Source: an uncultured Prevotella sp. (GTDB lineage: Bacteria; Bacteroidota; Bacteroidia; Bacteroidales; Bacteroidaceae). Taken from it: a stretch of DNA of 34,235 bases. The position numbers were made by a program, and so were the translations under genes. Location: NCBI GenBank assembly GCA_934217675.1, contig CAKQCV010000022.1:1-34235 (forward strand), read 5' to 3'. Within the stretch, counting starts at the first letter, position 1; each line of letters starts with the position of its first letter. Below the pieces are notes generated by a model. The model saw only the letters and a program-made list of their open reading frames with translations, had not been told where the DNA came from and did no database searches. Positions 30,174 through 34,235 of the stretch are shown one piece after another.

Positions 30174-31028
30174 ATGAAAGTATTTCATAAGATTGTAGAC
30201 CTGCAGAACGAATTGTTCGCTGCTCGCAAAGCCGGCAAGACGGTGGGTCTCGTCCCTACGATGGGGGCTCTTCATGAGGGGCACGCATCCTTGGTAACGC
30301 GCTGCGTAAAGGAGAACGATGTGACCGTAGTTTCTGTTTTCGTGAACCCTACTCAGTTTAACGACAAAACTGATTTGAATACATATCCGCGCACCCTTGA
30401 TGCCGACTGCAAGCTGCTTGAAAGCGCAGGTGCCGACTTTGTGCTGGCTCCGGCAGTAGAGGAGATGTATCCAGTGCCGGACAAACGCCACTTCGAGTTT
30501 CCACCGGTAACAACCGTGATGGAGGGAGCACATCGTCCGGGTCATTTCAACGGAGTTTGTCAGGTGGTGAGCCGCCTGTTCTATATCGTGAGACCGGACA
30601 GGGCATACTTCGGTGAGAAAGACTGGCAGCAGATTGCAGTAATCAAGGCTCTGGTGAAATATCTCGAACTGAATGTGAAGATTGTGGAGTGCCCGATCGT
30701 GAGAGAGGCTGACGGACTTGCCAAGTCGTCGCGAAACACTCTTCTCGCTCCCGATGAGAGGGCAATAGCTCCAAACATATACAAATACTTGAAGGAGAGC
30801 CTTGACTATGCCAAGACCCACACCTTGAAGGAAACCCACGACTGGGTGGTGAGCCAGATAAATGCCGTTGACGGACTTGAGGTGGAATATTTTGCCATCG
30901 TAGACGGCGACACGCTGCTTGATGCCAACAACTGGGAGGACACTCCAAACATCGTGGGCTGTATCACCGTGTATTGCGGAAAGAAACCGATAAGACTTAT
31001 CGACCATATTAAATATAATAGAAAATAA
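30174..31028 (+). CDS. panC: Pantothenate synthetase (pantoate-beta-alanine ligase)
   Basis: This 284-residue enzyme joins pantoate and beta-alanine using ATP, the last step of pantothenate synthesis. The nucleotidyltransferase HxGH is His34-His37 in [30 protein letters not shown] (147-153) and KSSRN (184-188) are also present. The length is typical. The ATG at 30174 directly precedes the family N-terminus [11 protein letters not shown]; the longer open frame upstream runs through the leader hairpin. panD follows after 16 bases in the same operon. Confidence 0.97.
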
Positions 31029-31044
31029 CGGAACGAAAGGAATC

Positions 31045-31389
31045 ATGTTAATTGAGGTTTTAAAGAGCAAGCTGCATTGCGTAAAAGTAACTCAGGCGAA
31101 CTTGAACTATATGGGTAGCATCACCATTGATGAGGATTTGATGGACGCTGCCAATCTCATAGCAGGAGAGAAAGTACAGATTGTAGACAACAATAACGGT
31201 GAACGCTTTGAGACGTATATCATAAAAGGCGAGCGTGGCAGTGGCTGTATCTGTCTTAACGGTGCAGCAGCACGCAAATGCTTGGTGGGCGACACGGTGA
31301 TAATCATTGCCTACGCTTTGATGGACTTTGAAGAGGCAAAGACTTTCAAGCCGGTGGTGGTATTCCCTGTTGACAACAAGCTTGCATAA
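31045..31389 (+). CDS. panD: Aspartate 1-decarboxylase
   Basis: This 114-residue pyruvoyl enzyme makes beta-alanine from aspartate for PanC. The self-cleavage site is Gly24-Ser25 in YMGSITID; Ser25 becomes the pyruvoyl group. Lys9 and the Tyr58 region ([13 protein letters not shown]) match the family, and the C-terminus is the normal length. No PanM/PanZ-like factor is in the window. It is second in the panC-panD operon and ends before a strong terminator. Confidence 0.96.
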
Positions 31390-31439
31390 AAAAATTATTT
31401 ACGGCGAAAAATAAAATTAAATACTAAGAAATTAGTTGG

Positions 31440-31475
31440 AGTGTCCGGTTGCGTGAGCAAGTGGGCACTTTTTTT
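31440..31475 (+). terminator. Rho-independent terminator of panCD
   Basis: AGTGTCC (31440-31446) pairs with GGGCACT (31463-31469), and TTGC/GCAA pair inside around a GTGA tetraloop. A run of seven T follows at 31469-31475. Confidence 0.9.
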
Positions 31476-31531
31476 ATCCCCATCGGCAACACTCGTCTCA
31501 GTGCCAGCCACACACACTCTCTCTATCTGTT

Positions 31532-31600
31532 AAAAAACGCGCCATACTCTGTATATGCACGGTCAAGACAATTTGCTCCGTTGTTACAAAGTATGGCGCG
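31532..31600 (-). terminator. Terminator of the HU-HIG gene
   Basis: CGCGCCATACT (31538-31548) and AGTATGGCGCG (31590-31600) pair perfectly over 11 bases around a 41-base loop. On the minus strand the hairpin is followed by TTTTTT (31537-31532). It lies six bases past the stop. Confidence 0.8.
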
Positions 31601-31605
31601 ATTTT

Positions 31606-32082
31606 CTATTCAGCGTCCTGCTGTTCCTTCTTCTCAGAGTTGTTCTCGTCGATACCGGCAAGTTCAAAGCTCATTCTCGCTTTTCGTGCAGCGGCAGCAT
31701 TGTTGAATTTACCGTTGAGCACCTTGGTGCGGTTAGGCAGGAACCTCAGGTTAACCCCCTTTATATGCTTTTCTGGGTCAAACTCCTTCGGGTCTAAAAC
31801 TCCTTCAGAGCAGAGCGTGTTGTAGAAGGTGCCAAGTTCTCCCAGCTTCACTTTGTAGCTCTGTGCAAGCAGCTCCGTGATGCAATCCACGAGCTTCATT
31901 ATCACTCCTTGCACAGTGGCGCGGTCGTAGAGCGAACCGTGGTTAGAGATATGCTCACACAGCTCATCTATCCCCACTGTGCCGTGGGTCAGGTTTTGGG
32001 CATAATACTTGCCATTGTTGGTGGCGTCAGGGTTGTTCACTTTTTTCAGTTGATACTTGATGGTGTTAAGTACATTTGCCAT
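31606..32082 (-). CDS. HU-family DNA-binding protein (HU-HIG type)
   Basis: This 158-residue HU-related protein is of the Bacteroidetes HU-HIG kind. An N-terminal extension (NVLNTIKYQLKKVNNPD) precedes the HU core. The beta-arm pattern VKLGELGTFY is at 78-87, and the tail is charged (ENNSEKKEQQDAE). It should bind DNA. The ATG at 32082 gives the family-like MANVLNTIKYQLKKV start; a frame open 14 codons further is not favoured. It is downstream of DUF4248 on the same strand but separated by a terminator and 323 bases, so it probably has its own promoter. Confidence 0.87.
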   Translation of the reverse strand: MANVLNTIKYQLKKVNNPDATNNGKYYAQNLTHGTVGIDELCEHISNHGSLYDRATVQGVIMKLVDCITELLAQSYKVKLGELGTFYNTLCSEGVLDPKEFDPEKHIKGVNLRFLPNRTKVLNGKFNNAAAARKARMSFELAGIDENNSEKKEQQDAE

Positions 32083-32157
32083 AATTCTGATAAATTTTAA
32101 AAGTTTGAAAATTTTAGAAAACATTTTTTATAACTCTTTTGTCATTCATTGACGATG

Positions 32158-32221
32158 CAAAGATACTAAACCACCGTTGCCATGTTGTCTGCATACTGCA
32201 CGATTGCGCACGATAGTGCAG
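32158..32221 (-). promoter_or_regulatory. Putative promoter and operator-like site of the HU-HIG gene
   Basis: TATCTTTG (32165-32158, minus strand) is a perfect -7 box about 75 bases before the ATG, with no clear -33. About 30-55 bases upstream, CTGCAC (32196-32201) and GTGCAG (32216-32221) form an inverted repeat. Inside lie two direct copies of GCACGAT (32198-32204 and 32207-32213) and the palindrome TGCGCA. The arrangement resembles a protein-binding site. Confidence 0.45.
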
Positions 32222-32303
32222 CATTACGGATGGTTAAGTGGTTTTTCGTTCCTGTTTTTCTGTGGTAAACCAAAATCAGCCCAGTAGCTTAAAATGTGTA
32301 TTC

Positions 32304-32342
32304 AAAAAAAATCCCTCGCCCTGCATGTCTGCAGGATGAGGG
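32304..32342 (-). terminator. Rho-independent terminator after DUF4248
   Basis: CCCTC (32313-32317) pairs with GAGGG (32338-32342), and CCTGCA/TGCAGG (32320-32325, 32330-32335) pair around a four-base loop. A run of eight T follows on the minus strand (32311-32304). A further 7-bp stem, AGGGCAA/TTGCCCT (32372-32378, 32399-32405), lies directly after the DUF4248 stop. Confidence 0.9.
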
Positions 32343-32405
32343 AAACTGACGGTTGTAGGATGGCTGTCGGTAGGGCAAGCAGCAGATACCTGCCGCCTTT
32401 GCCCT

Positions 32406-32630
32406 TTAAGGCTCGCCAAGCATGCCTACAATTATTTCTACCTGGCGTGGGGTGAGATACTTGCTGCGCTTGTCGTATCCAGCTTCAAGCAAGCTGTCGG
32501 ACAGTCCGCGACAGTTTCTGATCCAGTTAGACAGCCGGCGGAGAGCTGCTGCAGGCATAGCCTCTGGGAAATACATCAGGGCAAGTTCCGACTTGCCGTA
32601 TGCCTTTATCTTGAATTCTTCCATGTGCAT
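32406..32630 (-). CDS. DUF4248 small protein
   Basis: This 74-residue protein matches the DUF4248 family of Bacteroidetes: FKIKAYGKSELALMYFP near the front, a Trp-Ile helix LRRLSNWIRNC in the middle, and LTPRQVEIIVGMLGEP at the end. The last part reads like a small helix-turn-helix, so DNA binding is possible but unproven. A second ATG three codons... two residues in (32624) is an equally good start. It begins 33 bases after the DUF3987 stop and is probably co-transcribed. DUF4248, DUF3987 and HU-HIG are, as I recall, frequent neighbours in Bacteroidales. Confidence 0.85.
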   Translation of the reverse strand: MHMEEFKIKAYGKSELALMYFPEAMPAAALRRLSNWIRNCRGLSDSLLEAGYDKRSKYLTPRQVEIIVGMLGEP

Positions 32631-32663
32631 ATACGGTTTTTAGAGTTATATATTTGTTTAGCG

Positions 32664-34154
32664 TCATTCTATCTCGTTGATGGATATAGAAGCCTTGCGG
32701 TAAACACCTCGCCTCAGTGGCACCAAGATGCAGTACACGTTGCAGAACTGGCTCAGCAGACGGGTGGCAGAGCGTTTGGAGAATCCGAACTTCTGGGCGG
32801 TGTCGGTAAACGTAACAGTTCTGAACTCGGTGTCGGGCAGATTGTTGAATATTTCCAGTTCATCTCTCTTCAGATTTATGCCACACTGCGCAAAGGGGTT
32901 TTCGTTATCCTTTGCCAAAATGGCATACACGCGTGCCGTGTGGTTGACCAGGCAACCCACGATGGTCATCGCCGTGTGGAAGTCGCGCTCATCGCATACG
33001 AGCGCATTCTCCGTCTCCCTGAATATCCATTCTTCCTTCTGCTCCACGCTTATTGCCGTCCACTCCGACAGTCGGCGCAGCGTGGTAAGAATCATGGCAT
33101 ATCTGAAACACTGCAGGGCAAGACGGAAGATGAAAGCCGAAATGCCATTGCCGAGCATAGAGAACTGCTCCTTGAGCAGCTGCTGGTAGGTATCAACAAA
33201 TTCATGCTGCTGACTGTTGCTCATCACAAACTGTATGGGGTGGTTCACTCTTGCTTGCAGCTCGTGGTAGAGCGGCATGAAGCTGTCGCCCATCTTGCGG
33301 TAGGTGTCTTCAAGCGGTGTGTTTGTCATGGCAAACACATTGTGGAAATTCACGCTGTTGCTCGGCATGCTGTAGAAGAGGAAGCGGCTGCCCAGTCCGT
33401 TTTCAAACGATGGGAAGAGAGCCTGAAGCTGTCCCGGTGTGCATGTGAGGAACACCGAGAGCCTCGGTTCCTCGATGTCGATGTGCAGCTTCTCGCTCAC
33501 TCGGTTCATGGATATCGTTTCGTGGTGGTGCGCCTTTCTCATCATGTCGGAGTAATTGCCGTAGTCGGAGCTTATCATGTTCGACACGGTGTCGGCTTCG
33601 GTCTCAAACATCATCCCCCATCCGCCGTTGGCATCAATAGCCCTGTAGACCGCTGCCGACGAGCTGTTTCCCGGAACGAAGGGGTCTTTATATAGCGGTT
33701 CCTTTGGTGGGTTTCCCGTTTCCGTCTTTTTCTTTCCCTTTTGCAGCGCCTCATATTCAGCAAGCTCCTTCTCGTATTCCGCCTTCTGCGCCTCGTATGT
33801 TCGCCTCATCTCGTTTTTCACCGGTTTTGCAACGAGTTTGCAGAAAGCCATCTCTCCCTTCGACGATCCGGCAACGCCAAACGCAATGTTGTAGAGTGGG
33901 GCATAGATGCGCCTTCCGTCGTATAGTCCATAGATACCGCTCTTGGCTTCGTAACTGCCGTTGGCACCTCCCATCAGTCCCGACACCACGTTAAGCACTC
34001 CGAGCATCATTTTGTCGCGGTCGGTGATGCTTTTGTGTACTTCCAGAATGGGGAGCAGAAACTGTGGCAAATCTTCAATTTTTAGTTTGTCGGAGAAGGT
34101 GTATCCCGAACAGTCCTTTTTTTGAGTTTGCGCCACTTGCGCCACTTGCGCCAT
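32664..34154 (-). CDS. DUF3987 P-loop NTPase, possible primase-helicase (start uncertain)
   Basis: From the ATG at 34154 this is a 496-residue DUF3987 protein. A variant P-loop GVAGSSKGE is at 93-101. A Lys/Glu-rich coiled segment lies at 113-142. An acidic FETEAD (183-188) fits Walker B, LSVFLTCTP (232-240) fits sensor 1, and GLGSRFLFY (253-261) holds a candidate arginine finger. DUF3987 proteins are thought to be replicative or primase-associated helicases of mobile elements. The first residues MAQVAQVAQ are coded by the GCGC iterons. The frame remains open for 27 more codons to the window edge, so the true start may lie outside. The gene looks richer in G+C than the first half of the window. 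Confidence 0.8.
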   Translation of the reverse strand: MAQVAQVAQTQKKDCSGYTFSDKLKIEDLPQFLLPILEVHKSITDRDKMMLGVLNVVSGLMGGANGSYEAKSGIYGLYDGRRIYAPLYNIAFGVAGSSKGEMAFCKLVAKPVKNEMRRTYEAQKAEYEKELAEYEALQKGKKKTETGNPPKEPLYKDPFVPGNSSSAAVYRAIDANGGWGMMFETEADTVSNMISSDYGNYSDMMRKAHHHETISMNRVSEKLHIDIEEPRLSVFLTCTPGQLQALFPSFENGLGSRFLFYSMPSNSVNFHNVFAMTNTPLEDTYRKMGDSFMPLYHELQARVNHPIQFVMSNSQQHEFVDTYQQLLKEQFSMLGNGISAFIFRLALQCFRYAMILTTLRRLSEWTAISVEQKEEWIFRETENALVCDERDFHTAMTIVGCLVNHTARVYAILAKDNENPFAQCGINLKRDELEIFNNLPDTEFRTVTFTDTAQKFGFSKRSATRLLSQFCNVYCILVPLRRGVYRKASISINEIE

Positions 34155-34235
34155 TGCGCCATTTGCGCCAAAATAGCTAAAAATGGGGGTTTTTACTGTA
34201 TTTTCTGTATTTGGCGCAATGGCGCAAGTGGCGCA
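34130..34235. repeat. Mirrored GCGCCA iteron clusters at the start of the DUF3987 gene
   Basis: On the plus strand, five GCGCCA units start at 34130, 34139, 34148, 34156 and 34165, spaced 9, 9, 8 and 9 bases. Three TGGCGC units in the opposite sense start at 34212, 34220 and 34229, spaced 8 and 9. The segment 34138-34161 is an exact 24-base reverse complement of 34212-34235, with 50 AT-rich bases between. The right cluster reaches the window edge and may continue. The left cluster is partly coding (MAQVAQVAQ). Confidence 0.85.

Follow-up and report, generated by a model that had tools for sequence, protein, structure and literature searches.

In lambdoid phages, the middle of the initiator gene O contains iterons and an AT-rich tract, which code for residues of the protein; extra iterons add residues (PMC7466680, in the part on this origin). 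The stretch of DNA analysed here, called the window, is 34,235 nucleotides long, belongs to an uncultured Prevotella sp., and ends within a mirrored array of GCGCCA iterons inside a gene for a protein with PriCT_2 and DUF3987 domains. Iterons and AT-rich tract are inside the gene here too, as far as that part of the source describes gene O. The likeness is one of layout only, the gene of the window being a putative initiator. In lambda the AT-rich tract has iterons on one side only. The present array is mirrored, its host protein combines PriCT_2 with a predicted MCM-like domain, and its unit varies between near-identical proteins. The array is neither an artefact nor an ordinary sequence: it is a mirrored cis site of origin-like design, widely retained and quick to change, inside a gene of the primase-helicase type, and it has gene-less derivatives. 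No title on this array was found in a literature search of open-licence papers.

Related systems

Staphylococcal pathogenicity islands (SaPI) and staphylococcal cassette chromosome mec (SCCmec) are integrating islands with helicase and primase genes and short repeats as the origin. Their origin, in part putative, follows the helicase gene on its downstream side, and Cch2 requires AAGTG iterons, which the site contains three times (PMC7581432, in the part on these islands). Genes of helicase and primase type are combined with short iterons here as well. By contrast with what that part describes, arrays here lie within the gene in type I and are divided between the linker and the stop-codon region in type II, and no constant integrase accompanies them (an integrase family in 4 of 21 stretches; 6.6–34 kb examined).

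At the archaeal oriC1, an AT-rich potential unwinding element stands between inverted origin recognition box (ORB) elements (PMC12141716, in the part on oriC1). Opposed sites around an AT-rich stretch are shared, within the scope of that part. The cluster here showed no Orc1 homologue, the units are tandem and locus-specific, and the host is bacterial. The archaeal replicative helicase is MCM, which the structural model of DUF3987 appears to resemble.

Miniature inverted-repeat elements (MITEs) offer a fourth comparison, with the arm pairs described below. These are gene-less, 0.1–0.8 kb long and have inverted ends like those around part of the resident gene. They differ from MITEs in ends made of variable tandem units and a CACACACGCG run, and in the absence, by eye, of target duplications. 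We know of no transposase for them.

Description of the mirrored array

32664..34235, minus strand: gene of the PriCT_2 and DUF3987 protein, open at the window end, PriCT_2 part beyond the window.
34128..34170, no strand: arm A, five copies of GCGCCA at 34130, 34139, 34148, 34156 and 34165; 3' arm in the direction of the gene; codes for FGANGAMAQVAQVAQ.
34162..34211, no strand: AT-rich centre, 50 bp, 68% A+T; frame open in the direction of the gene.
34212..34235, no strand: arm B, three copies of TGGCGC at 34212, 34220 and 34229; mirrored; 5' arm in the direction of the gene; codes for CATCAIAP.

Opposed clusters of a 6-base core at 8–9 base spacing, an exact 24-bp inverted repeat and an AT-rich 50-bp centre had been reported in the initial annotation; all are confirmed by the coordinates and by the A+T content. 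Core steps in arm A are 9, 9, 8 and 9. The exact repeat joins 34138–34161 to 34212–34235, with 50 bp between. Because the window stops within the array, 24 bp is a lower bound. The cut falls in arm B, and the corresponding peptide of a longer relative, P0001, is SATCATCAIAP. The A+T content is 68% in the centre versus 48% for 32664–34154. The linker reaches an inverted-repeat score of 24; none of 50 codon shuffles scored above 10, and no other segment of the same gene above 8. The motif GCGCCAYW is found 11 times in the window, six of these in the array (100 shuffles: mean 2.8, maximum 8). Spacers between the units are mirrored as well, in the window and likewise in several relatives. Folded as single-stranded DNA, the array region has a predicted energy of −39.9 kcal/mol (z = −7.6). 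No Rfam family was found in 31000–34235, and no DNA match to 31390–34235 in plasmid records.

The minus-strand open reading frame is free of stop codons as far as base 34235. Compared with the window protein, P0001 (678 aa; longest contig of its source, 2,751 bases) has a single difference among 523 shared residues. It has PriCT_2 at residues 64–131 and DUF3987 at 262–593, and reads through the array into PriCT_2. Its arms code for residues 153–164 and 177–191, and its array lies about 450 bases after the gene start. The array is coding DNA of the linker between PriCT_2, a primase-associated domain, and the helicase-like DUF3987 domain. Placement at the gene head, or as a promoter site, is ruled out by the open frame and by the extension of P0001 into PriCT_2, and the earlier suggestion that the protein carries the site at its own N-terminus gives way to an interdomain linker. 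The DUF3987 (PF13148) profile matches at 154.5 bits (curated cut-off 27). Residues 148–198 of P0001 are of very low model confidence (block means 26–41), and the encoded linker is probably disordered.

Relatives of the gene

Sixty-seven distinct genes, that of the window included, were compared; near-duplicates and duplicates were removed from L001–L085, and the fragments L003 and L004 were kept. The inverted repeat of the linker exceeded all 50 codon shuffles in 45 of the 67 genes and scored at least 15 in 25. None of 464 control segments, from 65 of the genes, scored above 12. In 23 of the 25 strong cases the arm of the same locus was the best or joint best partner (mean score 20.9 versus 6.5 for arms of other loci; highest other-locus score 23, some loci having a unit in common); arms were chosen by their own match, which biases towards this result, and the choice alone reached at most 12 in the control segments. 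The A+T content of the centre was above that of the gene in 24 of the 25.

The array unit is 8–9 nt long, differs by locus and agrees between both arms of one locus. Units found are TTGCGCCA (window), TTCCGCCA, TTCCGACA, TTGTGCCA, TTCGGCCA, TTTCCCTCA, ACCTCA and TTTGCGCA. The expectation that iterons would be kept at other DUF3987 loci is thus borne out for the mirrored repeat, significant in 45 of 67 linkers, and fails for its letters: in the compared sequences the GCGCCA core is not conserved, and only the mirrored layout is kept. Copy number is unequal between the two arms in P0012 and P0065. As search patterns, CCACTTNNGCCA was too loose (counts in ten Prevotella-type genomes mostly like the backwards control) and TCACN{0,3}CACACRCGYRYG too strict.

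One genome (G001) holds a full gene with CCGCCA units and a truncated second copy with CCGACA units, each unit on both arms; the flanks are near-identical, and one TGTCGG is common to both copies. Judged from the sequences, the difference is a concerted change of both arms. In two truncated copies of this genome (L004 1511–1770 and L097 6154–6639) the mirrored array is the main part left, and the unit is particular to each copy. In addition, L097 retains tandem arrays that are found beside the full copy in L096.

A second layout (type II) is found in Bacteroides-like genomes. The linker holds units and a CTCACACACACGCGCG-like run, the mirror arm is near the stop codon (about 95 bases before to 80 after it), and the helicase part is between them. 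Among 45 loci, after removal of six duplicates, the stop-codon arm is present in 25 of the 31 with a CACAC run in the linker and in none of the 14 without. In 17 of these 25 loci the whole second arm falls past the first stop-codon base; arm pairing is therefore no side effect of the encoded peptide. The arms of L091 share a perfect 50-bp match.

Within a group of 71 near-identical proteins, 68 were compared, with the first 94 residues excluded and the presumed units deduced from the protein. The strongest link to unit class outside the linker is at C-terminal positions 657–687 (normalised information 0.33–0.45, with exceptions). Two haplotypes that track unit class, again with exceptions, are seen at these positions in P0004 and the near-identical group. 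A simple reader of the unit in the helicase body was considered and rejected, given protein pairs identical across classes and the exceptions at 657–687.

Gene-less arm pairs

Twenty-one inverted arm pairs without a gene were found, 119–832 bp long, with a longest ATG frame of 78 aa. All are short and have terminal inverted repeats, as is typical of MITEs. Arms are present also in stretches without long frames. Pairs of CTTGCAANCTTGCA type under 1 kb number eight, in five of 12 genomes holding a gene with that unit, and none in ten genomes without it; the test genomes were chosen for a CTTGCAA-type gene, and further pattern searches served as reverse controls. Pairs of GGTACANNNGGTACA type number 13, in 10 of 14 genomes with a gene of that unit, and none in two without it; G713 and G695 were counted as holders of a GGTACA gene, though a single arm of each fits the exact pattern. 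The backwards control gave 0 or 1 match per strand. Left out of the count were a 3.6-kb pair in G298 (L137), a 3.2-kb pair in G738 (counted as a gene) and unpaired matches, including one in G706. L156 (G713) is degenerate and does not fit the gene of its genome.

Tandem arrays with a period of 22–23 nt adjoin many pairs and the 3' side of several genes (L100, L101, L102, L104, L150, L155) among the matches listed, where their unit also varies by genome. Those that repeat every 22 nt might represent a further cis site. They are placed as follows.

L100, 10046–10108: 22-nt-period array.
L101, 10473–10524: 22-nt-period array.
L102, 10068–10143: 22-nt-period array.
L139, 158–224: 22-nt-period array.
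L157, 598–658: 22-nt-period array.

Three similar stretches in G764 (L163, L164, L165) contain a CACACGTGCGCG run and CACCTTATTATA, with no iterons seen. They are perhaps worn-out relatives of the arms.

Neighbouring genes and chromosomal position

32406..32630, minus strand: DUF4248 gene, member of a recurring cluster.
31606..32124, minus strand: gene of HU-HIG, an HU-type DNA-binding protein, member of the recurring cluster.
31533..31605, no strand: second inverted repeat, 21-nt arms, 90%, containing GCGCCATA; just beyond the HU-HIG stop, between the converging panD and HU-HIG genes.

The second inverted repeat, tied to the iterons at most conjecturally, is perhaps a two-way terminator between converging genes or an extra site. 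The recurring gene order is an upstream BT4734-like_N (PF08800) gene, PriCT_2-DUF3987, DUF4248, HU-HIG and sometimes an amidase matching a phage lysis family. By BLAST, which gives lower bounds, BT4734-like_N was present in at least 14 of 21 stretches, HU-HIG in at least 12 and DUF4248 in at least 6. For the copy in the window, the upstream gene falls outside the sequence. In one of two upstream genes tested, a Prim-Pol match was found below the cut-off (19.2 versus 22.8 bits); PADLOC names it PrimPol. The module adjoins a relaxase in L090 and an integrase in L103, with other units there (TTTATCCA, TTTTACCA).

For six proteins submitted to PADLOC, only the PrimPol (CRISPR-associated) and RTasVirE-PriCT2 (DRT) models matched, and a known defence system was rejected on this result. 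No relative was found in scans of viral_contigs with P0001 and P0004, which detect close relatives only. Phage records gave 35 distant matches, none reaching 60% identity, and in one of them query coverage was 80%; plasmid records gave six, all below 60% identity. A phage origin was rejected, phage records giving distant matches only and the viral_contigs scans no close relative.

At one chromosomal spot an insert of 34–45 kb is present in five genomes (G706, G764, G403, G800, G784). Its first part has relatives of NusG, polysaccharide-export, PrimPol and DUF3987 proteins in all five and HU-HIG and DUF4248 in four (missed in G764); Pfam names were taken from G403 only. In G725, G698, G767 and G814 the same spot holds about 0.4–0.6 kb with an arm pair (worn in G814), and in G769 it holds 0.9 kb with no arms by eye. 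Ten of many genomes were examined, with the first 9–14 kb and the last 4–5 kb of each large insert.

L197, L199, L201, L203, L205: large inserts at the spot.
L157, L193, L194, L195: gene-less arm pairs at the spot.

Breakpoints were seen at or near arms. In G395 two loci are alike at 99% over 728 bp of flank and arm and diverge just inside the arm. In G439 a matching arm pair is split between two loci. The likeness of L004 to the gene starts, by eye, at the outer end of the arm, and in G738 the break of a second copy falls about 100 bp past the arm. Several gene-less pairs are old residents that different species have in common. No target-site duplication was seen by eye in the pair flanks shown; no systematic test was made.

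Discussion

The array is regarded, with about an even chance of being right, as the cis-acting start site, most likely the replication origin, of a Bacteroidales primase-helicase module, with that module's own helicase gene as its host. An origin, an operator and the site of an integrating element had all been proposed in the initial annotation. The origin-like reading fits best, because primase and helicase-like domains, mirrored units, an AT-rich centre and arms at one place in many relatives go together; a tie to mobility survives in part, through the gene-less pairs and two cases of breakpoints at arms. Module proteins (PrimPol, PriCT_2-DUF3987, DUF4248 or HU-HIG) would bind the units, the AT-rich stretch would open, and each arm would load one of two helicase rings in head-to-head orientation. 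Many peptides would be accepted as linker, leaving the DNA site free to vary.

Several observations weigh against a replication origin read by its own module. Mirrored repeats were not significant in 22 of the 67 linkers. Some of these have a partner near the stop codon; L014, L016 and L083 (direct repeats only), L018, and L057 (no repeat visible) are left unexplained. Type II arms are about 1.5–1.6 kb apart in pattern searches and are not placed around one AT-rich centre. The resemblance of the DUF3987 region to MCM-like AAA+ proteins by fold match is suggested with modest confidence, the mean predicted local distance difference test value of the model being 63.5 and Foldseek TM-scores at most 0.29 among the matches listed. 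No constant mover accompanies the module; an integrase family was present in the 4 stretches mentioned, and a distant recombinase may lie beyond their limits. For the gene-less pairs, the Fisher value (15 of 26 versus 0 of 12 genomes, p = 8e-4) is optimistic, the genomes being related and some sites common by descent. In trans, only the class of the unit matches: the gene of the same genome was unbeaten by those of other genomes in 5 of 12 comparisons and outscored in 7 (pairs or single arms), units being common within the genus.

Protein comparison adds to these points. P0008 and P0027, like P0003 and P0010, are identical over positions 95–186 and 240–720 and differ in presumed unit class. 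P0003 and P0012 (longest contigs listed, 13.9 kb and 142 kb) are of different classes, with one difference in 569 columns. At the protein level, P0073 has a left arm of one class and a right arm of another. Identical bodies occur with different unit classes, and therefore the helicase body is not the sole reader of the unit. Near-identical proteins with apparently different units speak against simple co-evolution of reader and site. This leaves two possibilities: reading of the unit by a different gene, or action of the site through pairing or recombination.

Recombination is central to a rival view in which the arms mark the ends of a mobile element or its sites of recombination and serve as cut or exchange points, with the gene-less pairs as MITE-like copies moved in trans. 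Such a role would account for 21 gene-less pairs of 0.1–0.8 kb, for the onset of likeness at the outer arm end in L004, for the G395 loci that part just inside the arm and for the split pair of G439. It is nevertheless unlikely: no transposase or constant integrase was found in the stretches examined, no target-site duplication was seen by eye (no systematic test was made), PriCT_2 and PrimPol sit outside the arms, the G738 copy breaks about 100 bp past the arm, and several pairs are old residents common to different species. Base pairing alone might matter instead, as a DNA cruciform or an mRNA hairpin, with the sequence free and arm-to-arm copying maintaining likeness. The mirrored spacers of the window and several relatives, the strong predicted single-stranded fold and the swapping of units with little or no protein change are in keeping with this. 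Units inside one arm, however, are also alike, which pairing does not require; arm copy numbers are unequal in P0012 and P0065, type II arms are about 1.5–1.6 kb apart, and gene-less pairs carry the resident unit class. Pairing as the whole explanation is accordingly improbable.

An autoregulatory operator, at which a cluster protein binds the units and controls transcription of the module, is a slightly poorer prospect still. The HU-HIG and DUF4248 genes do adjoin, but the site is within the gene, about 450 bases past the start in P0001, the type II arm is near the stop codon, and gene-less copies would not regulate the module. Chance, a low-complexity coding linker or a contig-end assembly artefact is scarcely credible. 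The window does end within the repeat, and the linker peptide is repetitive; chance is excluded by codon shuffles and control segments, and arms occur where there are no long frames. An inversion artefact at the contig end, considered separately, is opposed by P0001, which reads through the array, and by relatives with mirrored arrays.

A wider extension of the origin-like reading is possible and rather doubtful. It envisages a family of integrase-less replicative elements in the Bacteroidales, with the origin in the linker of their own MCM-like helicase gene and origin letters changing as a block faster than the protein. Gene-less origin cassettes would be left behind, including at the spot that holds polysaccharide loci in sister species, and might be exchange points for those loci.

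If the array is an origin, the recurring, functionally unassigned Bacteroidales cluster of PrimPol, PriCT_2-DUF3987, DUF4248 and HU-HIG would gain a function and a testable origin, and a bacterial MCM-like helicase would have a nested, mirrored one. The many natural site variants in near-identical proteins would be useful for learning how sites are read. The arms would also mark cassettes at a position occupied in sister species by polysaccharide islands.
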